Made by a program: the position numbers and the translations under genes | Shown here: positions 1,188 through 16,119 of the stretch, one piece after another | Layout of the letters: every line of letters begins with the position of its first letter | Position numbering within the stretch: the stretch's first letter is position 1 | The notes under the pieces: generated by a model | Told to the model about the DNA's origin: nothing | Database searches by the model: none | Seen by the model: the letters and a program-made list of their open reading frames with translations, nothing else | DNA from: Colwelliaceae bacterium | GTDB taxonomy: Bacteria > Pseudomonadota > Gammaproteobacteria > Enterobacterales > Alteromonadaceae | Direction of reading: 5' to 3' | DNA length: 48,916 nt | Assembly (NCBI GenBank): GCA_023954655.1 | Contig: JAGSHH010000003.1 | Location: 1-48,916, forward strand

Positions 1188-1218
1188 TAGATCCTAAAAG
1201 CAATCTAAAACGTATATC
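1188..1218 (+). promoter_or_regulatory. Putative ECF (RpoE/ChrR-type) promoter upstream of MipA/OmpV gene
   Basis: TAGATCC-N16-CGTATATC; same spacing as the element upstream of rpoE. Confidence 0.55.
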
Positions 1219-1259
1219 ACAAAAATGATGTTAATTTGTTGCGGCTAAAATTAAAACTT

Positions 1260-2003
1260 ATGAGAAATATATCTATATTATGTATGACAATACTATTGCC
1301 TTTTTCTGCAATCGCGCAAAAGTCACTTGATACCACAGGATATTTATATGGTCTTGGTGTTAGTACAAACAAAGAAATTTATAAAGGCTATAACAGACGA
1401 ACGATACCTTTACCGATAATTGGTTACAAAGGTGAAAAGTTAAAAGTTTTTGGTCCTTTCATCAGTTACCAAGTATCACAGTTTTCCGACTTTAATTTCC
1501 TTATTCAAGTAGCACCTAGATTTCAGGGTTTTGACGACAGCGATAGTGATATTTTTGTAGGTATGAAAGATAGAAAGTTTTCTATGGACGTTGGTGCTGC
1601 ATTTAGTTATGAAGCCAATGAATGGAAAATAAATATTTCGTCAATGTTTGATGTTTTAAATCGTTCAAATGGTGTTGAACTTGTTACAGCACTTTCTCAT
1701 ACTTTTAGGTTCGGCCCCATATTTGTAGAACCTCGACTAACGTTAAGTTATTTAGACAGTAATCACGTTGATTATTATTATGGTGTTGATAAAGAGGAGG
1801 TAAATGAAAGCAGGTCTGAGTTTATTGGTTCAAGTGCCCTTAATACCGGCTTTGGTTTGTCTATTTCTACTCCAATTTTGTTTAATGGTTTTACTCAGCT
1901 GAATATACAGAGAACATGGTTTTCTGATGAAATAACTGACAGTCCTTTAGTTGAAGATCATAGTAATATTAATATTCGCCTTTTGTACACTCGAAAATTT
2001 TAG
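1260..2003 (+). CDS. MipA/OmpV family outer-membrane protein
   Basis: Signal peptide MRNISILCMTILLPFSAIAQ, then MipA/OmpV-like GYLYGLGVSTNKEIYKGYNRRTIPLPIIGYKG. ATG at 1260 preferred over the TTG at 1236. Confidence 0.75.
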   Translation: MRNISILCMTILLPFSAIAQKSLDTTGYLYGLGVSTNKEIYKGYNRRTIPLPIIGYKGEKLKVFGPFISYQVSQFSDFNFLIQVAPRFQGFDDSDSDIFVGMKDRKFSMDVGAAFSYEANEWKINISSMFDVLNRSNGVELVTALSHTFRFGPIFVEPRLTLSYLDSNHVDYYYGVDKEEVNESRSEFIGSSALNTGFGLSISTPILFNGFTQLNIQRTWFSDEITDSPLVEDHSNINIRLLYTRKF

Positions 2004-2011
2004 CTCCCATT

Positions 2012-2040
2012 TTAATCCAAATGACTGATTCATACGTATA
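2012..2040 (+). promoter_or_regulatory. Putative ECF promoter upstream of the DUF2878/chalcone isomerase-like/DUF3833 operon
   Basis: TTAATCC-N16-CGTATA, 16-nt spacing, ~30 nt before the ATG at 2072. Confidence 0.5.
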
Positions 2041-2071
2041 GATAATTAAACGTCTAATAGTTAATTGTAAT

Positions 2072-2563
2072 ATGCTGCTTAATTTGCTTGGATTTAACCT
2101 ATCTTGGTTTGGTTTGATTTTACTCGGGAATATTTTTATACCTTTGTCATTACTATGGCTAGGCTTACACCTTTATCTTTGCAAAGATTTGAAGAATGAA
2201 TTGAAATTAATTTTAACCATCGTGGTGATCGGTACATTAGTTGATACTACATTGCTATCATTAGATATTTTAATATTTCCGGAACACCATTCCATTCCAT
2301 TATGGTTGATTACCCTTTGGGCTTGTTTCGCTGCAACAGTCGCACATAGTCTACAATTTTTAGCGCAATCATCATTGCTTCAAGTAATTATAGGCTTTTT
2401 TATTCCACCATTAAGTTACCTTGGAGGAGCCTCTTTATCAGCTGTTGAATTGGGTTATAGCCACGTTACAACATATTTTATCTTAGCGTCAATTTGGTCT
2501 GTTTTAATGGTGTTGTTTTTTCATTTTAAAGAAATTCACTATGGTCAGGTCAAATATGGGTAA
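2072..2563 (+). CDS. DUF2878-like integral membrane protein
   Basis: Multi-TM protein with FNLSWFGLILLGN...GTLVDTTLL pattern; overlaps the next gene. Confidence 0.7.
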   Translation: MLLNLLGFNLSWFGLILLGNIFIPLSLLWLGLHLYLCKDLKNELKLILTIVVIGTLVDTTLLSLDILIFPEHHSIPLWLITLWACFAATVAHSLQFLAQSSLLQVIIGFFIPPLSYLGGASLSAVELGYSHVTTYFILASIWSVLMVLFFHFKEIHYGQVKYG

Positions 2564-3104
2564 TGTAATTTTAATATTCATAATGTTGATTAATTCAATA
2601 ATATCAGTAGCTGATGCAAGTAGTGAAGAGCTACTTGATTGCCACCTGTCAGATTATTGCAAGTTAGAATTTAAAGAAGTAGGTAGGGCAAAATTCTCAG
2701 TATTATTTTGGGATATATATAATAGTAGCTTGTATACCAAATCAGGCAATTATATACATCAGTATCCGCCAGAGTTGATACTCTTTAAAATAGAGTACTT
2801 AAAAGACATCACTTCAGATGATTTACTCAAACGTACCGTTCAGCAATGGCAGCATTTAGAAGTTCCTGAATCACAATATGCTCAATATCTTCCTAAATTA
2901 AAATCAATTTGGCCAAACATTTCAGTTGGTGACTCACTGACTCTGTTTGTAAAAAAGGGTGTGTCGATATTTTATTTTAATAACATGCAGGTTGGTGTCA
3001 TACATGAACATGAGTTTAGTAAATTGTTTTTAGATATTTGGCTATCTCCTAAAACGAGCCAAGAAAAATTACGAGAAAAATTACTAGGAGGTAATACATT
3101 ATGA
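2556..3104 (+). CDS. Chalcone isomerase-like domain protein, exported
   Basis: KEVGRAKFSVLFWDIYNSSLYTKSG...LILFKIEYLKDITSDDLLKRTVQQW fits bacterial chalcone isomerase-like proteins. ATG at 2556 gives the signal peptide MGNVILIFIMLINSIISVADA. Confidence 0.75.
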   Translation: MGNVILIFIMLINSIISVADASSEELLDCHLSDYCKLEFKEVGRAKFSVLFWDIYNSSLYTKSGNYIHQYPPELILFKIEYLKDITSDDLLKRTVQQWQHLEVPESQYAQYLPKLKSIWPNISVGDSLTLFVKKGVSIFYFNNMQVGVIHEHEFSKLFLDIWLSPKTSQEKLREKLLGGNTL

Positions 3105-3649
3105 TTTTGTTTCAACGGTTATTTTTAATGTCAATGTTGTTAATACTAGTAAGTTGTAGTGCTGATGTTTCAGAGTATAAAAGTACCAGCCCTAAGTTTG
3201 ATATTAAGACTTATTTTAGTGGAGAACTTATAGCATGGGGAATGGTTCAAGAACATTCGTCTAAGGTAACTAGACGTTTTTGTGTAGAACTAGAGGGTAC
3301 ATGGAAAGACAATGAAGGAACACTTGAAGAAGTTTTTTATTTTCAAGATGGTGAAATTAGTTATCGAACATGGCATCTAACTAAGTTACCTAATGATGAA
3401 TATATTGGTGGTGCTGAAGATGTTCCGGGGGTGGCCAAAGGAAAACAAATGGGATTTGCTTTCCATTGGCAATATCAGTTATTAGTACCTATTGATGGTG
3501 ATACTTATACTTTTGATATGGATGATTGGATGTATCAGCTTGATGAATATAGAGTGTTCAATAAAACTACGATGTCTAAGTTAGGTTTTGATGTGGCAAA
3601 AATCACCCTGTTTTTTGATAAATCTCATTCCAGAAAATCATGCCGATAA
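3101..3649 (+). CDS. DUF3833-like lipoprotein
   Basis: Lipobox LILVSC; DIKTYFSGELIAWGMVQEHSSKVTRRF... pattern; ATGA-type overlap with previous gene. Confidence 0.75.
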   Translation: MILFQRLFLMSMLLILVSCSADVSEYKSTSPKFDIKTYFSGELIAWGMVQEHSSKVTRRFCVELEGTWKDNEGTLEEVFYFQDGEISYRTWHLTKLPNDEYIGGAEDVPGVAKGKQMGFAFHWQYQLLVPIDGDTYTFDMDDWMYQLDEYRVFNKTTMSKLGFDVAKITLFFDKSHSRKSCR

Positions 3650-3671
3650 TATTTTTTTAGTAGCTCAAAAT

Positions 3672-4595
3672 TCAGTTGAGACTATTAGAAGAAGGCTCTT
3701 TATTAAGTAAATTTTTTAAGGCGTTATCAATAGTGGGATATTTAAAATTAAAACCGCTATTGATGAGTTTACGTGGCACAACATTTTGACCAAATAGCAA
3801 TAAGTCAGCCATTTCACCAAAAACAATTTTTAAAAGTACTGCTGGCGTTGTAAAAAAGAAGGGGCGTTGGAGTACTTTTGCTAAATTTTGAGAAAAATCT
3901 GCGTTTGTAACTGGATTATTGGCTGTGATGTTGATTGCACCTTTTATTGATGGTGTATCTTTTATATGTAAAATTGCAGAAATCATGTCATCAATGTGTA
4001 TCCACGACATAATTTGTTGACCGTTGCATATTTTTCCGCCTAAGCCCAGTTTAAAAGGTAAAAGCATTTTCGCGAGTGCACCTGATTCAGGATCAAGCAC
4101 AATACCTGTTCTTAAAATTACAACACGCGTCACATCTGATTTCGCTTCTAACGCTAGCGCTTCCCACCTTGAACATACTTCATGAGTAAATTCTTGATGG
4201 TATTGTGTGAATGATTCATCTATTGGAGTGTCAGCTTGTCTACCATAAATGCCAATAGCGCTGCCTGAAATGAATAAACTTGGTGGGTTTTTAGCTAGAT
4301 TTATTAACTCTGCTAGTTTCTTGGTAATATCCCATCGACTTTGGCAAATTTTCTTTTTTTGACTATCAGTCCACCGCCTATCTGCAATAGGTTCACCAGC
4401 TAGATTAATTATCGTATTCTGATTTTCAATATCATCAATTGATAAATGTTCAATAAGCTTAATATTTGAACCTAATAGTTTTTTAGCCTTATATTTATTT
4501 CTTGTTAAAACTGTAATCCTATTCCCTTCATTGGCTAAAGCTGTGATTAAGTTGTGTCCTATAAGACCTGTACCTCCGCTAATTAAGTAATTCAT
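3672..4595 (-). CDS. TIGR01777/YfcH-like NAD-dependent epimerase (SDR)
   Basis: MNYLISGGTGLIGHNL Rossmann motif; NLAGEPIADRRWT and SGSAIGIYG are typical of the YfcH group. Confidence 0.85.
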   Translation of the reverse strand: MNYLISGGTGLIGHNLITALANEGNRITVLTRNKYKAKKLLGSNIKLIEHLSIDDIENQNTIINLAGEPIADRRWTDSQKKKICQSRWDITKKLAELINLAKNPPSLFISGSAIGIYGRQADTPIDESFTQYHQEFTHEVCSRWEALALEAKSDVTRVVILRTGIVLDPESGALAKMLLPFKLGLGGKICNGQQIMSWIHIDDMISAILHIKDTPSIKGAINITANNPVTNADFSQNLAKVLQRPFFFTTPAVLLKIVFGEMADLLLFGQNVVPRKLINSGFNFKYPTIDNALKNLLNKEPSSNSLN

Positions 4596-4626
4596 ATCAC
4601 GCCTCCCATGTTAACCAATACATTCA

Positions 4627-4654
4627 ATACGAGTAACTAAACACCTTAGATCAC
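4627..4654 (-). promoter_or_regulatory. Putative ECF promoter for the YfcH-like gene
   Basis: Minus strand GTGATCT-N16-CGTATT; exact 16-nt spacing. Confidence 0.65.
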
Positions 4655-4688
4655 TTAAATAATTTAATTATTTATTTTGAAAGTTTTT

Positions 4689-4719
4689 GTGATCTTAATG
4701 ATTTTATCCAGCGTAAATA
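4689..4719 (+). promoter_or_regulatory. Putative ECF promoter for the fasciclin gene
   Basis: GTGATCT-N16-CGTAAATA, with AGG-type Shine-Dalgarno and ATG at 4749 downstream. Confidence 0.65.
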
Positions 4720-4748
4720 TCCTCAATCATACAAACGAGGATAGAAAA

Positions 4749-6590
4749 ATGAATAATATAAAATCTATATTCATTATCGTTACAAGCATATTTTTACTAC
4801 AAGCATGCAATAGCGATGACAAAAGCAATACTACACCTGATAATCCCATGACACTCGAACCTGTAAGTCATACATCTATTGTAGACGCAGCAGTCTCTGA
4901 TGGAAACTTTACTACATTAGTAGCAGCTTTACAGGCAACCGGCTTAGATGCAACATTAGATAATATTGCGAATACTTATACAGTATTTGCGCCAACTGAT
5001 GACGCATTTGCATTATTAGGTCAAGAAACTATTGATGCCTTATTGGCAGATACCGATACATTGTCTGATATTCTTACATACCATGTAATTGGAAGTGAAG
5101 TTGATGCAGCTACTGCAATTAGCCTTGCAGGTACAACTGTTGAAATGGTTAATGGAGATTCAATTGGTTTGTCGCTTGATGGTGATAATCTACTGATAAA
5201 TACTGTAACGGTGACAACTGCTGATATCCAAACAGATAACGGAATCATTCATGTGATCGATGCGGTTCTGCTTCCACCAGCTGATATGATTGAGCCGACA
5301 ATGAATATTGTTGAAACAGCTGTTGCAAATGGAAGCTTCACAACTCTAGTTGCTGCATTACAAGCGACAGATCTAGATATGGTGCTTGCCGATGAAAGCT
5401 CGTCTTTCACCGTATTTGCTCCTACCGACGATGCTTTTTCACTTATTGGTGAAGAAACAATCACGATGTTATTGGCTGACACGGATTTACTATCAAGTAT
5501 TTTATTGCAACACGTTATTATTGGAAGTGCTGTTGATTCTGTCACCGCATATTCTCTTAATGGAGCTATGGTGGAAACAGCTTCAATGGCTGAAATTTCA
5601 TTAAGCATAAACACAGCAACAGATATGTTGACCTTTGGTGGTGCAAATATAGTAATGAAAGATATTTACACAACTAACGGAATTATTCATGTTATCGATG
5701 CTGTCATTGTTGGTGATGTAGAACTACCAGCTCCTCCTATGAGTTTAGTTGACGTAGCTAGTGCAAATGGTAGCTTTACAACATTAGTCGCGGCTCTTGA
5801 ATCAACAGGTTTAGACGTTACATTAGCTGATTTAGATAGTAACTATACAGTATTTGCACCTACCGACGATGCTTTTGCTAAATTGCCTGCAGGTACTCTA
5901 GAAAGCTTAACTGCTGAGCAACTAACTAATATTTTGTTGTATCACGTTTTACCAGGAAAAGTGATGGCTGACGGCGCTATTTCGGTGGCCCAATCTGATA
6001 GCAATATGATCGAAGTTGCTAATGGCGACATGGTGTCTCTTTCTTTTGCTAACTCAACATTGTTTATAAATGGTGCCAAAGTGAGTACAGCTGATGTAAT
6101 GGCAGAAAATGGGGTTATTCATGTTATCGATAATGTCATTTTACCTCCTACCATGATGGAAACACCAACTCAAAATATCGTTGATGTAGCACTTGCAGAT
6201 CCAGACAATTTCTCTACTTTAGTAACAGCATTAACAGCGGCAGATTTAGTGACAACTTTAGCTGATGAAGATGCAACATTCACAGTTTTCGCACCAACAA
6301 ACGCAGCTTTTGATGCTGTTGACCCAGATGCATTGTCTGCGCTTTTGGCTGATACAGATATGCTTACTAATGTTTTATTAACTCATGTAGTAGGGGGAAC
6401 CGCAATTAGCGCTTTAGATGCTTATGCAGCTAATGGAAAAATGCTAACTACAGCTTCTGGTAAAATGATTAATGTAATGGTTGATGAAGATACGGGCTTA
6501 TTAATTATTGGTGGTGCTAATGTCATTATTTCAGATATTTATACAACCAATGGTGTTATTCATGTTATTGACACCGTAATTTTAGAGTGA
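4749..6590 (+). CDS. Lipoprotein with four fasciclin (FAS1) domains
   Basis: Signal/lipobox MNNIKSIFIIVTSIFLLQAC; four repeats of FTTLVAAL...YTVFAPTDDAF...NGIIHVIDAVL. The ORF-track start at 4677 lies inside the putative promoter region, so ATG 4749 is preferred. Confidence 0.92.
   Translation: MNNIKSIFIIVTSIFLLQACNSDDKSNTTPDNPMTLEPVSHTSIVDAAVSDGNFTTLVAALQATGLDATLDNIANTYTVFAPTDDAFALLGQETIDALLADTDTLSDILTYHVIGSEVDAATAISLAGTTVEMVNGDSIGLSLDGDNLLINTVTVTTADIQTDNGIIHVIDAVLLPPADMIEPTMNIVETAVANGSFTTLVAALQATDLDMVLADESSSFTVFAPTDDAFSLIGEETITMLLADTDLLSSILLQHVIIGSAVDSVTAYSLNGAMVETASMAEISLSINTATDMLTFGGANIVMKDIYTTNGIIHVIDAVIVGDVELPAPPMSLVDVASANGSFTTLVAALESTGLDVTLADLDSNYTVFAPTDDAFAKLPAGTLESLTAEQLTNILLYHVLPGKVMADGAISVAQSDSNMIEVANGDMVSLSFANSTLFINGAKVSTADVMAENGVIHVIDNVILPPTMMETPTQNIVDVALADPDNFSTLVTALTAADLVTTLADEDATFTVFAPTNAAFDAVDPDALSALLADTDMLTNVLLTHVVGGTAISALDAYAANGKMLTTASGKMINVMVDEDTGLLIIGGANVIISDIYTTNGVIHVIDTVILE
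4860..6590 (+). repeat. Four tandem FAS1-domain coding repeats (~430 bp each)
   Basis: Approximate units 4860-5280, 5281-5715, 5716-6150 and 6151-6590, each ending in a HVID-V motif. Confidence 0.85.
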
Positions 6591-6638
6591 TGTAGGCTAC
6601 TTTACCCAAAATGCTTTTTTAGTTTGTCGTACTTTATA

Positions 6639-6660
6639 GCCCCAACCCGGGGCTTTTTTT
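6639..6660 (+). terminator. Rho-independent terminator after fasciclin gene
   Basis: GCCCC-AACCC-GGGGC followed by TTTTTTT. Confidence 0.85.
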
Positions 6661-6668
6661 ATATTTAA

Positions 6669-6698
6669 TTGATCAAATAATCAAGTTATTACGTATGG
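6669..6698 (+). promoter_or_regulatory. Putative ECF promoter upstream of LON-domain gene
   Basis: TTGATCA-N16-CGTATGG; exact 16-nt spacing. Confidence 0.5.
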
Positions 6699-6704
6699 AC
6701 TATT

Positions 6705-7286
6705 ATGAAAAAATTAAACTTAAATACAGAAATAATATTACCAATCTTACCCGTTCCCGTTTTTCTGTTGTCAAAAGGTATCGTACGGTTACGAATATTT
6801 GAACCTCGCTATTTGAAAATGGTTAAAATAGCGACGAAAGGAACTGGGTTTGTTATCTGGGGCAATTCAACTGAGTCACCATTGCCTAATATTCATTGGG
6901 GAAGTTGGGTTGAAATAATTAACTTTAATCATGGAAAAGATAACATCTTAGAGATTGATGTTAAATGTAAAGCCTTAGTTGGATTGAATGGTTTTAACCG
7001 TGATCAAGATGATTTACTTTTTGCCAAAATCACACCAATACATCACTGGTCTGAAAAACCCAATAAATTTATAACCGATGAAAATTCATCTTTATTAGCT
7101 AAAGCTATAGAAGACGACATATTATTAAATGAACTTTATTGTGACAAACAAATGAACGACATAAATTGGGTTATTGCAAGATGGCTGGAGTTATTACCTA
7201 TCAGCATGGAAATTAAGAGTACTTTTGTTTTCACCGGTAAATTAAATGACGCCAAAAACTTTGTTGAATCTATTATTTTAAATTAA
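6705..7286 (+). CDS. LON peptidase substrate-binding (N-terminal) domain protein
   Basis: LPILPVPVFLLSKGIVRLRIFEPRYLKMV motif; no AAA or protease domain. Confidence 0.8.
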   Translation: MKKLNLNTEIILPILPVPVFLLSKGIVRLRIFEPRYLKMVKIATKGTGFVIWGNSTESPLPNIHWGSWVEIINFNHGKDNILEIDVKCKALVGLNGFNRDQDDLLFAKITPIHHWSEKPNKFITDENSSLLAKAIEDDILLNELYCDKQMNDINWVIARWLELLPISMEIKSTFVFTGKLNDAKNFVESIILN

Positions 7287-7297
7287 TTTTAATAAAT

Positions 7298-7328
7298 GTG
7301 ATCCTTTCTTAAAATTCACCCGTATTAC
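7298..7328 (+). promoter_or_regulatory. Putative autoregulated ECF promoter of rpoE-chrR operon
   Basis: GTGATCC-N16-CGTATTAC; reference element for the other matches. Confidence 0.7.
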
Positions 7329-7364: not shown

Positions 7365-7982
7365 ATGCAAACTAACTTGCTTAGTAGAGTGACTAGTGAT
7401 AAACCTATTCATATGTCAGAAAAAATTAATCACCCACAACTTTGTGCTTGGCTTAGTGCAGTCGCTAATACTCGAGATAAAGTATCGTTTACCCACTTGT
7501 TCAAATTTTTTGGGCCCAAAATCCAATCGATAGCTCGTGGAAAATTCCCCAATGAAGCTCAAGCTAATGAAGTAGTTCAAGAAACAATGAGTAATGTTTG
7601 GAGGAAAGCACATTTATTTGATAAAGATAAAGGGGCTGCTACAACATGGGTTTATACAGTCATGCGTAACGTAACTTTCGATATGTTGCGTAAAATAAAA
7701 GGCAATAAGGAAGATAACCTCAGTGATGATATTTGGCCATTAGCTGAGAGTATGGTTTGCGAAAGTGAGTCATTCGATGATCATTTAGAGAATAAACAAC
7801 TACTTTCTGTGCTTGAACAACTGCCAGAAGCACAACAAGCAGTAGTTAAAGGGTTTTACTTTATGGAAATGTCTCAAGAACAACTTGCCGTTCATCTAAA
7901 TTTACCGCTAGGTACAATAAAATCTCGTTTACGTTTGGCCTTAAGTAAACTCAAAGTGCAGTTAGGAGAAGATAATGATTAA
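7365..7982 (+). CDS. rpoE: ECF RNA polymerase sigma factor (RpoE/ChrR-partner type)
   Basis: Sigma region 2 (NEVVQETMSNVWRKAHLFDKDKGAATTWVYTVMRNVTFDMLR) and region 4 (LPEAQQAVVKGFYFMEMSQEQLAVHLNLPLGTIKSRLRLALSKL); overlaps chrR. Start may be Met17 at 7413. Confidence 0.92.
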   Translation: MQTNLLSRVTSDKPIHMSEKINHPQLCAWLSAVANTRDKVSFTHLFKFFGPKIQSIARGKFPNEAQANEVVQETMSNVWRKAHLFDKDKGAATTWVYTVMRNVTFDMLRKIKGNKEDNLSDDIWPLAESMVCESESFDDHLENKQLLSVLEQLPEAQQAVVKGFYFMEMSQEQLAVHLNLPLGTIKSRLRLALSKLKVQLGEDND

Positions 7983-8649
7983 ACATCACCCCAAATTCGA
8001 ACTTTTACAATCTTTTGTTGATGGTGATTTACCTGCTTCTTTATCTGCGGCTGTGGCAATTCATGCAGACATGTGTGCGCAATGTCAAAAGAAAATAGCA
8101 CTACTTACAGATCAAATAGCAGAAACCAGTTTTGAAGAAAACTTTCTTGATAGGTTTATTGTTGACGATGAGGCTGTAGATACTATCGACTTTGATAAAA
8201 TGATAGAGGGGATAACTGAGTCCTCTGACATAGACATAAGCGAAACCAAAGTAAAAAAATCTATAGAGTTTGCCAATAAGACTTATAACTTACCGACTGT
8301 TTTAAATAACATAATCTTAGGTAAAACAGCACATATTGGAAAACTTTCTCGTACTCGATTAGAGCTACAAGAAGATGAAATACATACCAGCTTATTACAT
8401 ATTGAGCCCGGAGGAGGAGTACCTCAGCATACACATAAAGGATTTGAATTAACTTTATTGTTAGATGGCTCTTTTCATGATGAACATGGTGAATACGTTA
8501 AGGGTGATTTCATCATGCTTGACGGTTCACATACACACAATCCCATTTCTGCTGAGGGGTGTCTGTGTTACACCGTTGCAAACGATGCATTGCACTTCAC
8601 GCAAGGCATCAACAAATTACTAAACCCTATTGGTGCTTTTATTTACTAA
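7975..8649 (+). CDS. chrR: ChrR-family zinc-binding anti-sigma factor with cupin domain
   Basis: N-terminal HxxxCxxC (HADMCAQC) anti-sigma domain plus C-terminal cupin (PQHTHKGFELTLLLDGSFHDEHGEYVKGDF); adjacent to ECF sigma. Confidence 0.92.
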   Translation: MIKHHPKFELLQSFVDGDLPASLSAAVAIHADMCAQCQKKIALLTDQIAETSFEENFLDRFIVDDEAVDTIDFDKMIEGITESSDIDISETKVKKSIEFANKTYNLPTVLNNIILGKTAHIGKLSRTRLELQEDEIHTSLLHIEPGGGVPQHTHKGFELTLLLDGSFHDEHGEYVKGDFIMLDGSHTHNPISAEGCLCYTVANDALHFTQGINKLLNPIGAFIY

Positions 8650-8671: not shown

Positions 8672-9634
8672 ATGATGATTCACTCTGTTGATAAAAAAGA
8701 TCTTAAAATAGGCATCAGTGCTTGCTTGATAGGTGAAAAAGTACGTTTTGACGCAAGTAATAAGCCGTCTAACTTTTGCATAAAAGAATTAGGTCAGCAT
8801 GTAACCTACAAATCATTTTGCCCGGAAGTTGCTATTGGTTTGCCTATTCCTAGGCAAACAATTCGCCAAATAAAAAAAGATGACATTATTAGCGTTTCTA
8901 GACCTGATGGTTCAGGTGATGTTACATCTGCACTCAAAGCATATGGCAAAAAAGTAGCAACTATGACAAAAGACCTAAGCGGTTATGTTTTTTGTTCTAA
9001 AAGCCCCAGTTGCGGAATGGAGCGAGTAAAAGTTTATAGCCCACAAGGTAATTCACTTCCGTCTGATGGTATTGGTATTTTTGCAAAAGAAATAATGCGA
9101 GCTAATCCATCTCTACCATGTGAAGAAAATGGTCGATTAAACGATCCTATCATTCGTGAAAACTTCGTCGCTCGTGTTTATGCTTACAAGCATTGGCAAA
9201 ATGTCGAAGCGTCAGGTTTGAGCAAACATAAGATAACCACTTTTCATAGCCAATATAAATACACGGTAATGAGTCATGACTTGGTTGCTTATAAAAAGTT
9301 AGGTCAATTATTAGCTAGGGCTGACTTGCCATTGGAAGACGTTGCTGCTCAATATATTACAGGGCTAATGGCTGCGTTAACTATTAAAGCAACTCGTAAA
9401 AAGCACGCTAATACTTTATCGCACATGCAAGGGTATTTTTCTAAACATCTCAAGAGCAATGAACGCCAAGAGTTATGTGAACAAATTAATGCGTATCGAG
9501 CAGGGTTAATCCCTTTATTTGCACCGCTAACCTTGATTAAACATTACTTATTGCAATATCCGAAAGATTATTTAGCAAAACAGGCTTACCTTTCGCCATA
9601 CCCTGATGAGCTTAAGCTTAGATATGCTTATTAA
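8672..9634 (+). CDS. DUF523-DUF1722 fusion protein (YbgA/TudS-like)
   Basis: ISACLIGEKVRFDA, FCPEVAIGLPIPR, CSKSPSCG (DUF523 cysteines), followed by a DUF1722 region (KYTVMSHD...YKKLGQLLA). Confidence 0.88.
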   Translation: MMIHSVDKKDLKIGISACLIGEKVRFDASNKPSNFCIKELGQHVTYKSFCPEVAIGLPIPRQTIRQIKKDDIISVSRPDGSGDVTSALKAYGKKVATMTKDLSGYVFCSKSPSCGMERVKVYSPQGNSLPSDGIGIFAKEIMRANPSLPCEENGRLNDPIIRENFVARVYAYKHWQNVEASGLSKHKITTFHSQYKYTVMSHDLVAYKKLGQLLARADLPLEDVAAQYITGLMAALTIKATRKKHANTLSHMQGYFSKHLKSNERQELCEQINAYRAGLIPLFAPLTLIKHYLLQYPKDYLAKQAYLSPYPDELKLRYAY

Positions 9635-9650: not shown

Positions 9651-11027
9651 ATGTTACTTTGGTTTCGAAATGATTTAAGAACTCACGATAACCCCGCCTT
9701 ACATTACTTTATGGACGCTCATTGTTCAGATCATCCACGTAAGGCGTTTTTTTTCATCTCAGAAAAGCAATGGCACTGTCACGATTGGTCTGCGATTAAA
9801 ATTGATTTTGTTAAACGCCATGCTTTTGCATTAATCCCAGAGTTAGCGAACTTGGGGATTGAACTTGAGGTGGTAACTGCACCCGACTTCTCTGCGCAGA
9901 TAGACTATCTGAAAAAATACTGTAAACAGCATGATATACAAAGTGTATTAGCTAATAGCGAGGTTGAGTACAATGAACAACAACGCGATAAGTTATTGAT
10001 AAAAAGTGGTATCCCTTTAAGGCTATTTGAGGCAGATGTTATTGTGCCAAAAGGGAAGGTATTAAATCAATCGGGGGCAATGTTCAAAGTATTTACACCG
10101 TTTAAAAAATCTTGGTTAGCGTATGTTAAAAAATTTGGTTTTGAATATTTAGGTAAAATAAAAAGCAAAAAATTAAATGATGTTGAGTTAAAAAGTACGG
10201 AAAATAATACAAGGTCGAGTTCATGGCCTATAGCGCATGATTATGAATTAAATACATTACCCACATTTTTTCAAGGTAAATTGGCTGATTATGCTGCTCA
10301 TCGAGACATCCCTTCAATTAAAGGTACTTCTGGTATTTCCCCTTATTTAGCTGCGGGTGTTATAAGCCCAAGATATGTTTTAGTTTCATTACTAAATAGC
10401 TTTCCCGATCTGTTATTGGCAACAGATAGCAAAGAATTCTCTTGGTTGAACGAAATTATTTGGCGGGAATTTTATCGACATTTACTATTTCATGAACAAA
10501 GGCTTTGTAAGCACCAATGTTTTAATAAAAAATATAAAGAAGTTCAGTGGTATGATAATAAAGAACTTTTTAATGCTTGGTGTGAGGGAAAAACCGGTTA
10601 CCCTCTTGTAGATGCCGCAATGCGGCAACTCAATCAAACTGGTTGGATGCATAACCGTTTAAGAATGGTTGTTGCCAGTTTTCTAACGAAACATTTACTT
10701 ATTGATTGGCGATTTGGTGAAAAATATTTCATGCAAAACCTTATAGATGGAGATTTAGCTTCAAATAATGGTGGTTGGCAATGGGCAGCAAGTACTGGGT
10801 GTGATGCTCAGCCGTACTTTAGGATTTTTAATCCGATAAGACAGAGTGAAAGATTTGATCCAAATGGCGATTTCATTCGTAAGTATTTACCAGAGCTAGA
10901 AAGTATTCCAGATAAACATATTCACTTTCCTCACCAATATATTGCCAAAACTAAATTGCAACTATATTGGCAGCCTATTGTTGACCATAAAGATGCTAGA
11001 TTAAAAGCGTTAGCTTTTTATAAATAG
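9651..11027 (+). CDS. phrB: Class I deoxyribodipyrimidine photolyase
   Basis: LLWFRNDLRTHDNPAL; GTSGISPYLAAGVISPR; WREFYRHLL; GYPLVDAAMRQLNQTGWMHNRLRM; DGDLASNNGGWQWAASTGCDAQPYFRIFNP. Confidence 0.95.
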   Translation: MLLWFRNDLRTHDNPALHYFMDAHCSDHPRKAFFFISEKQWHCHDWSAIKIDFVKRHAFALIPELANLGIELEVVTAPDFSAQIDYLKKYCKQHDIQSVLANSEVEYNEQQRDKLLIKSGIPLRLFEADVIVPKGKVLNQSGAMFKVFTPFKKSWLAYVKKFGFEYLGKIKSKKLNDVELKSTENNTRSSSWPIAHDYELNTLPTFFQGKLADYAAHRDIPSIKGTSGISPYLAAGVISPRYVLVSLLNSFPDLLLATDSKEFSWLNEIIWREFYRHLLFHEQRLCKHQCFNKKYKEVQWYDNKELFNAWCEGKTGYPLVDAAMRQLNQTGWMHNRLRMVVASFLTKHLLIDWRFGEKYFMQNLIDGDLASNNGGWQWAASTGCDAQPYFRIFNPIRQSERFDPNGDFIRKYLPELESIPDKHIHFPHQYIAKTKLQLYWQPIVDHKDARLKALAFYK

Positions 11028-11093: not shown

Positions 11094-11555
11094 ATGCAAA
11101 AAAATCAATTTAATTGTTTACCTAAAGATTCACCTACTTGGTTAAGTAATTTCGTCAATATTTATCAAACGCTTGCGACTAATAACTTAGACTTGCTAGC
11201 AAAAATTTATCATAAAGATATAACGTTTATTGACCCACTTCATCAAGTTGATGGTTTTGATGACTTATACCAATACTTTAATGTTCTTTATCAAAACTTA
11301 CTGACATGTGAATTTGTGATTAATCACGTAATTGTTGACGGTAATGAGGCTGCTGTTTATTGGACTATGACATACAAACATAGCAAATTAAATAAAGGAG
11401 AATTAGTAACTGTTTCCGGTTCTTCTCATATTAAAGGATGTGAAGATAAGGTGGTTTTTCATCGAGATTACCTTGATTTAGGAGCAATGCTTTACGAGCA
11501 AATCCCATTATTTGGCAAGGTCACAAAATGGATAAAAGCAAAGGCAGCTAGCTAA
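11094..11555 (+). CDS. NTF2/SnoaL-like protein
   Basis: WLSNFVNIYQTLATNNLDLLAKIYHKDITFIDPLHQVDG...YF; operon context. Confidence 0.8.
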   Translation: MQKNQFNCLPKDSPTWLSNFVNIYQTLATNNLDLLAKIYHKDITFIDPLHQVDGFDDLYQYFNVLYQNLLTCEFVINHVIVDGNEAAVYWTMTYKHSKLNKGELVTVSGSSHIKGCEDKVVFHRDYLDLGAMLYEQIPLFGKVTKWIKAKAAS

Positions 11556-12280
11556 TGTCTAACAAAACTATTTTAATTACTGGCGCAACATCTGGGATTG
11601 GTTTGGAGTTGTTTGAAAGATATGTAGCTCGAGGTGAAAAAGTTATTGCCTGTGGAAGAGATGCAAACAAATTAAGTCTTTTAGCCCCCAAAGCTTATAA
11701 AACGTGTTTGTTTGATCTTAATAGCCCCGACGATATTGAAAAGCAACTTAAAGCGTTAGCTGAGCTAGATATAGTAATTTTGAACGCTGGAGATTGTCGT
11801 TACGTTGACGACGCTAAAAACTTTGATGGCAAACTTTTTAGCGATATTATTACTACAAACCTAACGTCTTTAGGTTGGTTGTTACAATTCACCTTACCTC
11901 GATTAAAAAGCGACGGTCAGTTAGTTTTGATTAGTTCTAGCGCAACTATTTTACCTTTTCCTCGAAGTGAGGCTTATGGTGCTTCAAAAGCTGGAATGGA
12001 CTATTTAGCTAAAAGTCTACAATTAGATTTAGCTGAGCATAATATTGCTGTCACTTTAGTTCATCCTGGTTTTGTTAAAACGCCATTAACCGATAAAAAT
12101 GATTTTGAAATGCCTTTTCTTATCACAAGCAGAGAAGCTGCTTCCCGAATAATAATTGGCATCGATAAGCGTAAACGTTATTTACATTTCCCAAAACGTT
12201 TAACGTTACTTTTAAGAGTTATCTCATTCCTTCCATCATCACTTTGGCAAAAAATTATCTCTAGGAAGCATACTGCATGA
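11555..12280 (+). CDS. Short-chain dehydrogenase/reductase
   Basis: TILITGATSGIGLEL, NAG, SSSATILPFPRSEAYGASKAG. Confidence 0.92.
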   Translation: MSNKTILITGATSGIGLELFERYVARGEKVIACGRDANKLSLLAPKAYKTCLFDLNSPDDIEKQLKALAELDIVILNAGDCRYVDDAKNFDGKLFSDIITTNLTSLGWLLQFTLPRLKSDGQLVLISSSATILPFPRSEAYGASKAGMDYLAKSLQLDLAEHNIAVTLVHPGFVKTPLTDKNDFEMPFLITSREAASRIIIGIDKRKRYLHFPKRLTLLLRVISFLPSSLWQKIISRKHTA

Positions 12281-13536
12281 AAAATATCGCAATTATTGGG
12301 TCAGGAGTTTCAGGTTTAACGGCTGCTTATTTGTTATCTAAAAAGCATCATGTGACAGTTTTTGAAAAAAATGACCGTATTGGCGGTCATACAGCAACAG
12401 TTGATGTTGAAAAAGATGGCGAAAAATTCGCTATTGATACTGGGTTTATTGTGTTTAATGATAAAACCTATCCCAATTATTTAGCATTATTAGATGAAAT
12501 AGGTATAGGTAAACAAGCCACTGAAATGAGCTTTTCCGTACATAATTGTCAAACAGGTATGGAGTATAATGGACATAATTTAAATACACTTTTTGCTCAG
12601 CGACGTAATCTATTCAGGCCAAAATTTTGGCTGTTAGTTAAAGAAATTTTGCGGTTTAACAAACTATGTAAAAATGTTTTTGAAAATCAAAGCTATCAAA
12701 GTGGCTTAACATTAGGACAATTTTTATCAGAAAATAACTTTAATGATTATTTTGCAGAACACTATATTTTACCTATGGGGGCTGCAATTTGGTCTAGCTC
12801 TTTAGCACAAATGGAATATTTTGAATTCAGATTTTTTGTACAGTTTTTTCATAATCACGGCTTATTAAATATTGCTGATAGGCCTCAGTGGTATGTTATT
12901 CCTAAAGGTTCAAGAAGTTATTTAAAACCCTTGTGTGAACCCTTTAAAAGCAATATTAAATTGAATGCTGGTATTAGCGGTATTAGTCGAATGAATAACA
13001 AGGTTCAAATAGATTTTAGCCATACAGAGAGCGAAGTATTTGATGAGGTTGTTATCGCTTGTCATTCAGATGAAGCGTTAGCACTGTTAAACGATGCAAC
13101 AGCTGAGGAGAAGATGATTTTATCAGCAATGCCGTACAGTGAAAATTCAGTGGTGTTACATACTGATAAAAAACTATTGCCACAGCGTGAAAAAGCATGG
13201 GCAAGTTGGAATTACCAATTAAGTCGAGATAGAAGCAAAGCTGCAAGTGTTACTTATAATATGAATATTTTACAAGGCATTAAAAGTCACCATACTTTTT
13301 GTGTCTCTTTGAATCAAAAAGAAAATATTGATCCCAATTCAATTTTAAGGGAGTTCACTTATCATCACCCAATATTTTCTGCAAAATCCATTGCAGCACA
13401 GAAGCAAAGAAATAAGATATGCGGCATAAACCAAACACACTTTGCCGGTGCCTATTGGCATAATGGTTTTCATGAAGATGGTGTCAGAAGTGCAGTGGAA
13501 GTTGCTAAACGCTTTGACTGCTTATTAGCGAGTTAA
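12277..13536 (+). CDS. FAD-dependent oxidoreductase (amine-oxidase fold)
   Basis: IAIIGSGVSGLTAAYLLSKKHHVTVFEKNDRIGGHTATV; C-terminal FAGAYWHNGFHEDGVRSAVEVA. Confidence 0.92.
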   Translation: MKNIAIIGSGVSGLTAAYLLSKKHHVTVFEKNDRIGGHTATVDVEKDGEKFAIDTGFIVFNDKTYPNYLALLDEIGIGKQATEMSFSVHNCQTGMEYNGHNLNTLFAQRRNLFRPKFWLLVKEILRFNKLCKNVFENQSYQSGLTLGQFLSENNFNDYFAEHYILPMGAAIWSSSLAQMEYFEFRFFVQFFHNHGLLNIADRPQWYVIPKGSRSYLKPLCEPFKSNIKLNAGISGISRMNNKVQIDFSHTESEVFDEVVIACHSDEALALLNDATAEEKMILSAMPYSENSVVLHTDKKLLPQREKAWASWNYQLSRDRSKAASVTYNMNILQGIKSHHTFCVSLNQKENIDPNSILREFTYHHPIFSAKSIAAQKQRNKICGINQTHFAGAYWHNGFHEDGVRSAVEVAKRFDCLLAS

Positions 13537-13537
13537 A

Positions 13538-14311
13538 ATGAAAAATCTTTTTAGCCAAAGTCATATTTATTTAGGGAATATTATTCATCGACGTTTCAGC
13601 CCAAAGAAACATAGCTTTGACTATCCACTATATATGTTAGCGCTTGATGTGACGGAAGTTGAAAAAGCTAATGAAAGTGTGGGGTTATTTGGTTTTTCTT
13701 GGTATCACCCGTTACGGTTTGTTGAAAAAGATTACCTCAGAGGTGAACCAAACGGTTTAAAGCAACGTATAACAAATAAAGTAATGCAATTAAATGGTCA
13801 TAAAGATATCCATAAAATTGTCATGCTAGTTCAAGTGAGATGTTTCGGAATTTATTTTAGTCCAGCAAATTTTTATTTTTGCTTCGACCATAATGACACC
13901 TGTAGACAAATGCTTGCAGAAGTCAGTAATACGCCTTGGAATGAAAGGCATTACTATTTAGTAGACTTACAGACTAACGATGAAAGCGTGAATAAAAAGA
14001 CTTTTCAAGTATCACCTTTTATGGATTTAGATATGTCTTATTTTTGGAAAGTAAAACCGCCAAGCCAAGATGAAAATAAATTGATGATACATATTGAAAA
14101 TAAACGATTAGATTCGAAAAACGGCAAAGCAGATAAATTATTTGATGTTAACTTAATGATGGAAAAGCAAGCATTTAATCAAAAGAATTTATTACATGTT
14201 TGGTGCCAACTACCGGTAATGACAGTGAAAGTAGTTTTTGGGATTTATTGGCAAGCGGTGAAGATTTATCTAAAGCGGATTCCGTTTATTGGTTATCAAA
14301 AACCAAGCTAA
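13538..14311 (+). CDS. DUF1365 family protein
   Basis: IYLGNIIHRRFSPKKHSFDYPLYMLALDV; FYFCFD; NTPWNERHYYLVD. Confidence 0.9.
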   Translation: MKNLFSQSHIYLGNIIHRRFSPKKHSFDYPLYMLALDVTEVEKANESVGLFGFSWYHPLRFVEKDYLRGEPNGLKQRITNKVMQLNGHKDIHKIVMLVQVRCFGIYFSPANFYFCFDHNDTCRQMLAEVSNTPWNERHYYLVDLQTNDESVNKKTFQVSPFMDLDMSYFWKVKPPSQDENKLMIHIENKRLDSKNGKADKLFDVNLMMEKQAFNQKNLLHVWCQLPVMTVKVVFGIYWQAVKIYLKRIPFIGYQKPS

Positions 14312-14357
14312 ATAAAAATAGTTAATCACATTAAGACAATAGTGTTAGGAGAAAATA

Positions 14358-15584
14358 ATGGAGCAAGTTGAAGATATCAGAAGGTTAAAAAAAGCAAGCT
14401 GGTTTGATAAACGCTGTCGCTCTATTGTTCATGCTGTTTTTGAGAAACTGACCTATGGCCAATTAGAGGTCGTTGAAGGGGCACAGCATTATTTATTTCC
14501 TCAATGGACATGTGATTCTGGAATTCAAGGTAAAATACATATTCATGATATTAGTCTTTATCGTGATTTTGTTAAAGGTGGAAGTATTGGTGTTGCTGAA
14601 GCATTTATAGCAGGTAAATGGAGTAGTCCAAACCTAACTAATGTCATTCGAATTTTTGCCAAAGCTCAACAACAAACAGATAAACTAGAAGCTAAAAAGT
14701 CTTGGTCTAATAGAATAAAATATGCATTCAGTCATTGGCAGAATAGAAATACTCAATCTGGCTCAAAGCGTAATATTTTGGCTCATTATGATTTAGGCAA
14801 TGAACTATACACTCGCTTCCTCGATCCTGAAATGATGTACTCTTCGGCTATTTACCCATCAGATACTAGCACATTAGAAGAAGCACAAAATTACAAGTTA
14901 AAAACTATTTGTGAGCGTTTATCACTTAAAAGTTCAGATCACTTGTTAGAAATTGGCACGGGTTGGGGCGGCTTAGCTATTTATGCGGCAAAGCATTTTG
15001 GCTGTAGTGTTACCACAACAACTATTTCTGATGAACAATTTAAATACACAAAAGAACGTATACAAAAACTAGGCCTGTCGGAAAATATTACTTTATTAAA
15101 AGAAGACTACCGAGATTTAACGGGCAGTTACGATAAAGTTGTTTCCATTGAAATGATTGAAGCTGTTGGTTACGAATTCTTACCGAGCTTTTTTAAACAA
15201 TGTAATGATAGATTAAAGCCTGGCGGCAAAGTACTTATTCAAGCAATTACCATAGCCGATCAACGTTTTGAACATTACAAAAATAATGTTGATTTCATTC
15301 AAAAACACATCTTTCCTGGTGGCTTTTTACCTTCAATAAACATTCTATGTCAACATATGAAAGAACATAGTGATTTGGTAGTAGAAACTTTAGATGACAT
15401 CGGTCTTGATTATGCTAAAACACTGAACGATTGGCGAGTTAATTTTTTGAATTCTTGGTCAGAATTAACCCAGTTTGGCTATGATGATAATTTCAAGCGC
15501 CTATGGTTATATTACTTTGCTTATTGTGAAGGGGCATTTTTAGAACGCTCTACCAGCACGATTCATTTAGTTGCAAGAAAGTAA
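14358..15584 (+). CDS. cfa: Cyclopropane-fatty-acyl-phospholipid synthase-like SAM methyltransferase
   Basis: AHYDLGNELYTRFLDPEMMYSSAIY; LLEIGTGWGGLAIYAA; HIFPGGFLPS. Confidence 0.92.
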   Translation: MEQVEDIRRLKKASWFDKRCRSIVHAVFEKLTYGQLEVVEGAQHYLFPQWTCDSGIQGKIHIHDISLYRDFVKGGSIGVAEAFIAGKWSSPNLTNVIRIFAKAQQQTDKLEAKKSWSNRIKYAFSHWQNRNTQSGSKRNILAHYDLGNELYTRFLDPEMMYSSAIYPSDTSTLEEAQNYKLKTICERLSLKSSDHLLEIGTGWGGLAIYAAKHFGCSVTTTTISDEQFKYTKERIQKLGLSENITLLKEDYRDLTGSYDKVVSIEMIEAVGYEFLPSFFKQCNDRLKPGGKVLIQAITIADQRFEHYKNNVDFIQKHIFPGGFLPSINILCQHMKEHSDLVVETLDDIGLDYAKTLNDWRVNFLNSWSELTQFGYDDNFKRLWLYYFAYCEGAFLERSTSTIHLVARK

Positions 15585-15588
15585 CAAT

Positions 15589-16119
15589 ATGAATCAAATG
15601 TCAAAATACATAGTGTTACCATTAGTTTTATTCGTAATTACTAGTTGCACTGGTATTCCTGAAGGGATAAAACCAGTCAAAAATTTTGATGTTACAAAGT
15701 ATCAAGGTAAATGGTTTGAAATTGCTCGGTTGGATCACTCCTTCGAACGAGGTTTAGAGAAAATAACTGCACAATACACAATAAAACCTGATGACAATGT
15801 AGAGGTTATTAATCAGGGCTTTTCTACAATTGATAATGAATGGGACAAAGCTATTGGCAATGCAAAGTTTGTTAATAAAAAAGATGAAGGGCATTTAAAA
15901 GTGTCATTCTTTGGGCCCTTTTATGGCTCGTATGTAATATTTTATCTCGACGATGACTACCAACATGCATTTGTTTCTGGTCCTAATACAAATTATTTAT
16001 GGTTGTTATCACGAAAACCTAATCCACCAACAGAATTAATAGATAAATTTATTCAAATGTCTGGAGATAAAGGATTCGACATTACAAAATTAATTTTCGT
16101 AAAACATCTTCAAAACTAA
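15589..16119 (+). CDS. Lipocalin lipoprotein (Blc-like)
   Basis: Lipobox VITSC; FDVTKYQGKWFEIARLDHSFERGLEKITAQY. ATG at 15589 is preferred over 15571. Confidence 0.88.
   Translation: MNQMSKYIVLPLVLFVITSCTGIPEGIKPVKNFDVTKYQGKWFEIARLDHSFERGLEKITAQYTIKPDDNVEVINQGFSTIDNEWDKAIGNAKFVNKKDEGHLKVSFFGPFYGSYVIFYLDDDYQHAFVSGPNTNYLWLLSRKPNPPTELIDKFIQMSGDKGFDITKLIFVKHLQN

Follow-up and report, generated by a model that had tools for sequence, protein, structure and literature searches.

Locus Structure and Promoter Sites

The window analyzed here is a stretch of 48,916 nucleotides (nt) from a Colwelliaceae bacterium (assembly GCA_023954655.1, contig JAGSHH010000003.1, positions 1 to 48,916 of the forward strand). 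Its first part carries a gene island built around rpoE, the gene of an extracytoplasmic function (ECF) sigma factor, and chrR, the gene of its anti-sigma factor. The initial annotation described six promoter-like sites ahead of the units of this island. All six were found again, and a seventh copy that had been overlooked lies at 10855 inside the photolyase gene phrB. In the order of their positions, the features of the island are as follows (N16, a spacer of 16 nt).

1188..1216, + strand: site 1, TAGATCC-N16-CGTATA, before the MipA/OmpV-like gene; variant -35 box
1236..2003, + strand: MipA/OmpV-family outer membrane protein (Pfam MipA, 5.9e-33); the ATG at 1260 gives a signal peptide
2012..2040, + strand: site 2, TTAATCC-N16-CGTATA, before the DUF2878 operon
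2072..3649, + strand: operon of DUF2878, chalcone isomerase-like (Chalcone_3) and DUF3833 lipoprotein genes (Pfam)
3672..4595, - strand: YfcH-like TIGR01777 oxidoreductase (NCBIfam TIGR01777, 342.7 bits, cut-off 207)
4626..4654, - strand: site 3, GTGATCT-N16-CGTATT, before the YfcH-like gene; divergent from site 4
4689..4717, + strand: site 4, GTGATCT-N16-CGTAAA, before the fasciclin gene
4749..6590, + strand: lipoprotein with four fasciclin domains, start ATG at 4749 (Pfam Fasciclin, 1.9e-123, 4 stretches)
6638..6659, + strand: intrinsic terminator-like hairpin AGCCCC..GGGGCT and then a T-run, seen in the sequence between the fasciclin and LON units
6669..6697, + strand: site 5, TTGATCA-N16-CGTATG, before the LON-domain gene
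6705..7286, + strand: LON substrate-binding-domain protein without a protease domain (Pfam LON_substr_bdg, 1.2e-4, under the curated cut-off)
7298..7326, + strand: site 6, GTGATCC-N16-CGTATT, before rpoE-chrR; putatively autoregulatory
7365..7982, + strand: ECF sigma factor, RpoE2-like (NCBIfam NF009178, 323.9 bits, cut-off 301; Sigma70_r2/r4 above cut-off)
7975..8649, + strand: ChrR anti-sigma factor (TIGR02451, 168.8 bits, cut-off 124.5; Pfam Cupin_7, 9.8e-13)
8672..9634, + strand: DUF523/DUF1722 protein, YbgA-like (Pfam)
9651..11027, + strand: phrB photolyase (Pfam)
10855..10883, + strand: site 7, TTGATCC-N16-CGTAAG, within phrB, over the FDPNGDFIRK codons; predicted to act as an intragenic promoter of snoaL-sdr-ufaD-ufaO-ufaM
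11094..15584, + strand: genes of a SnoaL-like protein, an SDR, a UfaD-like flavin oxidase, a UfaO-like DUF1365 protein and a UfaM-like CFA methyltransferase (Pfam)
15586..16119, + strand: lipocalin, Blc-like (Pfam Lipocalin_2, 8.5e-39), last gene of the run

The sigma factor gene and chrR overlap at 7975-7982, and the ChrR protein combines an N-terminal HxxxCxxC zinc site (HADMCAQC at residue 30) with C-terminal cupin ligands (HTHKGFE, 152; HTHNP, 186). The term ECF11-type denotes here a likeness to known ECF11 sigma/ChrR systems. The core members of such systems, phr, cfa/ufaM, ufaD, ufaO and SDR, are all present in the island according to Pfam and the orthologue table of PMC5507510. The Ufa names were given by family match to RSP1091/1090/2144, the flavin oxidase being the UfaD of the literature; homologues of UfaM, UfaD and UfaO, the families of the furan fatty acid pathway, thereby stand side by side as family-level matches.

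Each of the six sites consists of a 7-mer of the form NWRATCH (a WRATCH-type -35 box), 16 nt, and CGTA, and lies on the correct strand 36-72 nt 5' of a plausible start codon. No match was found before any other of the 38 gene starts checked in the window. The positions had been given correctly, except that the minus-strand site ends at 4626 and not at 4627. A TGATC-like -35 box had been described for every unit, which is true of four units, while the boxes of mipA (TAGATCC) and DUF2878 (TTAATCC) are variants. A relaxed pattern, derived from the sites themselves, matched the 48.9-kb window eight times at spacing 16 and zero to three times at each other spacing from 12 to 21; 200 first-order Markov simulations of the window gave a mean of 1.04 and a maximum of 6 relaxed matches. 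Strict matches numbered five, against a simulated mean of 0.09 and maximum of 2. As the relaxed pattern takes its form from these sites, independent testing comes from the spacing control and from the relatives. A chance origin of the six sites as a group was rejected on the spacing control, the simulation and the relatives.

The promoters of the YfcH and fasciclin units (4626-4717) stand back to back, with 34-35 nt between their -35 boxes; several genera share this distance, also where LON takes the place of fasciclin. The ATG of the LON-domain gene (6705) lies 8 nt past the -10 box (window 6697-6705); if that ATG is the start, the mRNA would therefore be nearly leaderless.

Conservation of the Sites in Relatives

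Of the named relatives, Thalassotalea and Colwellia are the closest, and the island is syntenic in about 15 genera. In marine relatives, N16 matches precede the orthologues of DUF2878 (17/24), RpoE (17/20), YfcH, fasciclin and LON (11/30 each) and MipA (4/30), and also occur before SnoaL orthologues; spacings other than 16 before these orthologues gave zero to two matches. Among named loci, DUF2878 has an N16 site in 20 of 44, and the fasciclin sites (11/30 loci) all belong to long multi-domain orthologues. In a genome search the YfcH gene had its site in 9/9 cases inside the island, and site-bearing YfcH orthologues are mostly in-island. In 80 named loci, no site was found just before chrR, phrB, ufaD or DUF1365, which lie within operons. 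Conservation thus appears strong for DUF2878, fasciclin, LON and rpoE, mainly in-island for YfcH, and based on few orthologues for MipA.

The 16-nt spacing, initially called invariant, is so in the window but not in the relatives. Among 53 rpoE promoters of named relatives, 37 have a spacer of 16 nt, 10 of 15 nt (N15) and 3 of 17 nt (N17), and 3 have no site (50/53 at N15-N17). The N15 rpoE promoters were seen in loci L322-L326, L330, L331, L333, L336 and L339, where the other units stay at 16. A spacer of 15 nt at rpoE could tune promoter strength.

Regulon Scope and Co-occurrence With ChrR

An exact-pattern search of the 3.0-Mb assembly, which is 81% complete, found 16 matches to TGATCH-N16-CGTA, against 8 for the reversed control. 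Five are in the window, and the other 11 are all inside open reading frames; therefore, the detectable regulon of this assembly is the island. Co-occurrence with ChrR was assessed by Fisher tests, not tree-corrected, in 100 genomes of the family, of which 85 have ChrR and 15 do not. DUF3833 is missing in 13/15 ChrR-less vs. 2/85 ChrR-bearing genomes (p = 1.5e-12), LON in 12/15 vs. 10/85 (p = 2e-7) and YfcH in 6/15 vs. 2/85 (p = 1e-4). MipA and fasciclin showed no significant co-occurrence with ChrR in these genomes. A same-genus genome (G035, 99% complete) had no match for ChrR, LON, DUF3833 or YfcH, as if the island had been gained or lost as a unit.

It is possible, if on balance doubtful, that the match at mipA arose by chance and that mipA lies outside the regulon. 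Its -35 box TAGATCC departs from the consensus, the N16 form precedes few of its orthologues, and the gene does not significantly co-occur with ChrR. However, the syntenic Colwellia orthologue in L330 has TAAATCC-N16-CGTATA 72 nt upstream, a distance as in the window, and a same-genus orthologue (L082) has TAAATCT-N16-CGTATG. Moreover, the DUF2878 sites often have A at the third -35 position, and TaATCt occurs in the katG promoter that responds to PSPTO_1043 (PMC5507510).

A Predicted Promoter Site Inside phrB

Site 7 is in frame with the codons of FDPNGDFIRK, about 240 nt before snoaL, and recurs in nearly every relative. It was found in 95 of the 102 phrB genes with snoaL downstream and in none of the 29 others (Fisher 8e-23, no tree correction). 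The motif instead stands directly before snoaL in eight Shewanella loci, where snoaL is several kb away, in L349, and in L213, which has no ybgA-phrB. By the above counts, the site appears to be associated with the downstream gene snoaL and not with phrB itself. The statistics of the phrB association are limited because the genomes are related.

The codons of the site follow the same division. Where snoaL follows, the Arg codon is CGT in 97/99 genes, against an expectation of 30.8 based on the codon usage of the individual genes, and GAT is used in 100/102, against 73.0 expected on the same basis; where snoaL does not follow, CGT was found in 7/15 (4.3 expected) and GAT in 18/29 (20.8 expected). 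With z = 10.95, this Arg codon (R410) shows the strongest constraint among 127 testable conserved phrB columns. It appears that these silent codon choices in phrB are maintained because the sequence doubles as a promoter. Synonymous conservation was seen as well just 3' of site 7, in the CCA GAG codons (PE), near the expected transcription start.

A coding coincidence, in which the usual codons of the conserved photolyase segment FDPxGxFIRK merely resemble the promoter, is improbable. The segment does belong to a conserved protein stretch, and other synonymous codons of phrB are skewed too. In addition, the GDP.....RI segment of DUF1365, upstream of ufaM, fits the motif through its codons in three Colwellia loci; these are few cases, and that match could itself be a codon coincidence. 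However, the excess of CGT and GAT in phrB is found only when snoaL follows and usage is otherwise close to expected, and the motif is often directly before snoaL when phrB is absent or site-less.

The preferred reading places a promoter within phrB, through which the genes snoaL-sdr-ufaD-ufaO-ufaM probably form a separately promoted unit. We consider it likely that an ECF11 promoter has long been kept in the FDPxGxFIRK segment of the photolyase across several marine gammaproteobacterial families, where it would shape synonymous codons and perhaps residues. On changes of gene order it would have been lost from phrB, often to be back upstream of snoaL, and it would give the furan-fatty-acid genes a sigma-dependent boost of their own. 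A second candidate intragenic promoter is an N16 site within the 3'-terminal part of the DUF2878 gene, before the chalcone isomerase-like gene, in L380 (at 18683) and 13 further Shewanella loci.

Interpretation of the Island

By its letters and spacing, the motif is the one already published for the promoters of ECF11-type sigma/ChrR systems. With a probability of about 0.9, we read the locus as an autoregulated ECF11-type sigma/ChrR regulon gathered in one island of ~15 kb, with a seventh promoter inside phrB. Support for the single co-regulated ECF/ChrR island proposed at the outset comes from the identity of the motif with mapped promoters, its conservation before orthologues and the co-occurrence with ChrR. 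That the boxes are read by a regulator or sigma factor other than the adjacent RpoE is very improbable: in P. fluorescens the motif occurs at some phrB genes although a PSPTO_1043 homologue is lacking (PMC5507510), but in S. oneidensis SO_1987 and the ybgA operon are transcribed more strongly when RpoE2 is induced (PMC4336711), and the units co-occur with ChrR.

Several observations weigh against a single regulon of this membership. Support for mipA is thin, and its presence does not track ChrR. YfcH orthologues outside the island are mostly without the site, which is also absent in-island in L330 and L342. The intragenic site is missing from seven phrB genes that are followed by snoaL, and a tree-based independent-pairs test of the association offered only 5 supported pairs, of which 4.4 were concordant and 0 opposite (median p 0.125).

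The sites, their spacing and conservation, the co-occurrence with ChrR and the codon constraint in phrB were observed directly, and homology supplies the inducing signal, the loss of ChrR, the actual transcription and the furan fatty acid synthesis of the following model. ChrR would keep the sigma factor inactive until singlet oxygen or organic peroxides remove ChrR and free it. The freed sigma factor would lead RNA polymerase to the TGATCY-N16-CGTAW promoters of mipA, the DUF2878 operon, yfcH, the fasciclin gene, the LON gene and rpoE-chrR. The promoter embedded in phrB would drive snoaL-sdr-ufaD-ufaO-ufaM on top of read-through from rpoE, and the UfaM-UfaD-UfaO homologues may then synthesize furan fatty acids.

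Such an island would connect the way marine heterotrophs respond to singlet oxygen with poorly understood families (DUF2878, DUF3833, chalcone isomerase-like, LON without protease, YfcH and MipA), and it brings together at one locus a set of members open to testing. If the phrB site is true, one DNA stretch would encode a conserved part of the enzyme and act as a stress promoter as well, with natural replicates where the promoter has left the gene.

Outside the island, positions 20094-47500 of the window hold a probable alpha-glucan utilisation cluster, as seen from ORF translations only, with a LacI-type regulator, an MFS transporter, GH97-like and GH13-like enzymes, TonB receptors and a tryptophan halogenase-like protein.

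Comparison With Known Systems

The motif, the autoregulation, the LON neighbor and the fasciclin target have all been published. LON, fasciclin and rpoE-chrR, half of the six units, are already known as targets elsewhere from reports on Shewanella, R. sphaeroides and A. brasilense; for the last, a fasciclin protein was reported under RpoE-ChrR control (cited in PMC10949492). No mention of a phrB-internal promoter for this system was found in the literature searched, which did not include the founding paper of Dufour et al. (2008), so that an earlier mention is possible.

The RpoE2-ChrR system of S. oneidensis MR-1 shares the TGATCC-N16-CGTATT promoter upstream of rpoE2, whose start was mapped, and thus autoregulation; the adjoining LON-domain gene SO_1987 is RpoE2-dependent, and the ybgA-phrB-cfa operon is also a target (PMC4336711). 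In contrast to the island, its units are dispersed over several genome loci and include pgpD-hemH2. The text of that paper names no intragenic phrB promoter, and Shewanella sp. ANA-3 (L387) has the phrB site.

The sigma-E/ChrR singlet-oxygen regulon of R. sphaeroides resembles the island in its ECF11 sigma factor, zinc-binding ChrR, phr, cfa/ufaM, ufaD, ufaO and the fasciclin target RSP_1409, whereas the mipA, DUF2878 and yfcH units are not mentioned in the available portions of the reports (PMC6852236, PMC7380195, PMC7074977). That system also has a cascade from sigma-E to RpoHII. In V. cholerae, the blue-light regulon of ChrR/SigE has the motif TGATC-N16-18-CGTAW, of looser spacing, before 31 operons and 29 genes, and the available portion of the report (PMC5241685) describes no island.

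In P. syringae, PSPTO_1043/1042 has the consensus TGATCC-N16-CGTA, obtained by chromatin immunoprecipitation sequencing and quantitative PCR, and its regulon is dispersed (PMC5507510). Here a functional ECF promoter lies inside the coding gene PSPTO_1122 ahead of phrB, upstream of the photolyase gene and not within it as in the island; intragenic ECF promoters as such are therefore already known (PMC5507510).

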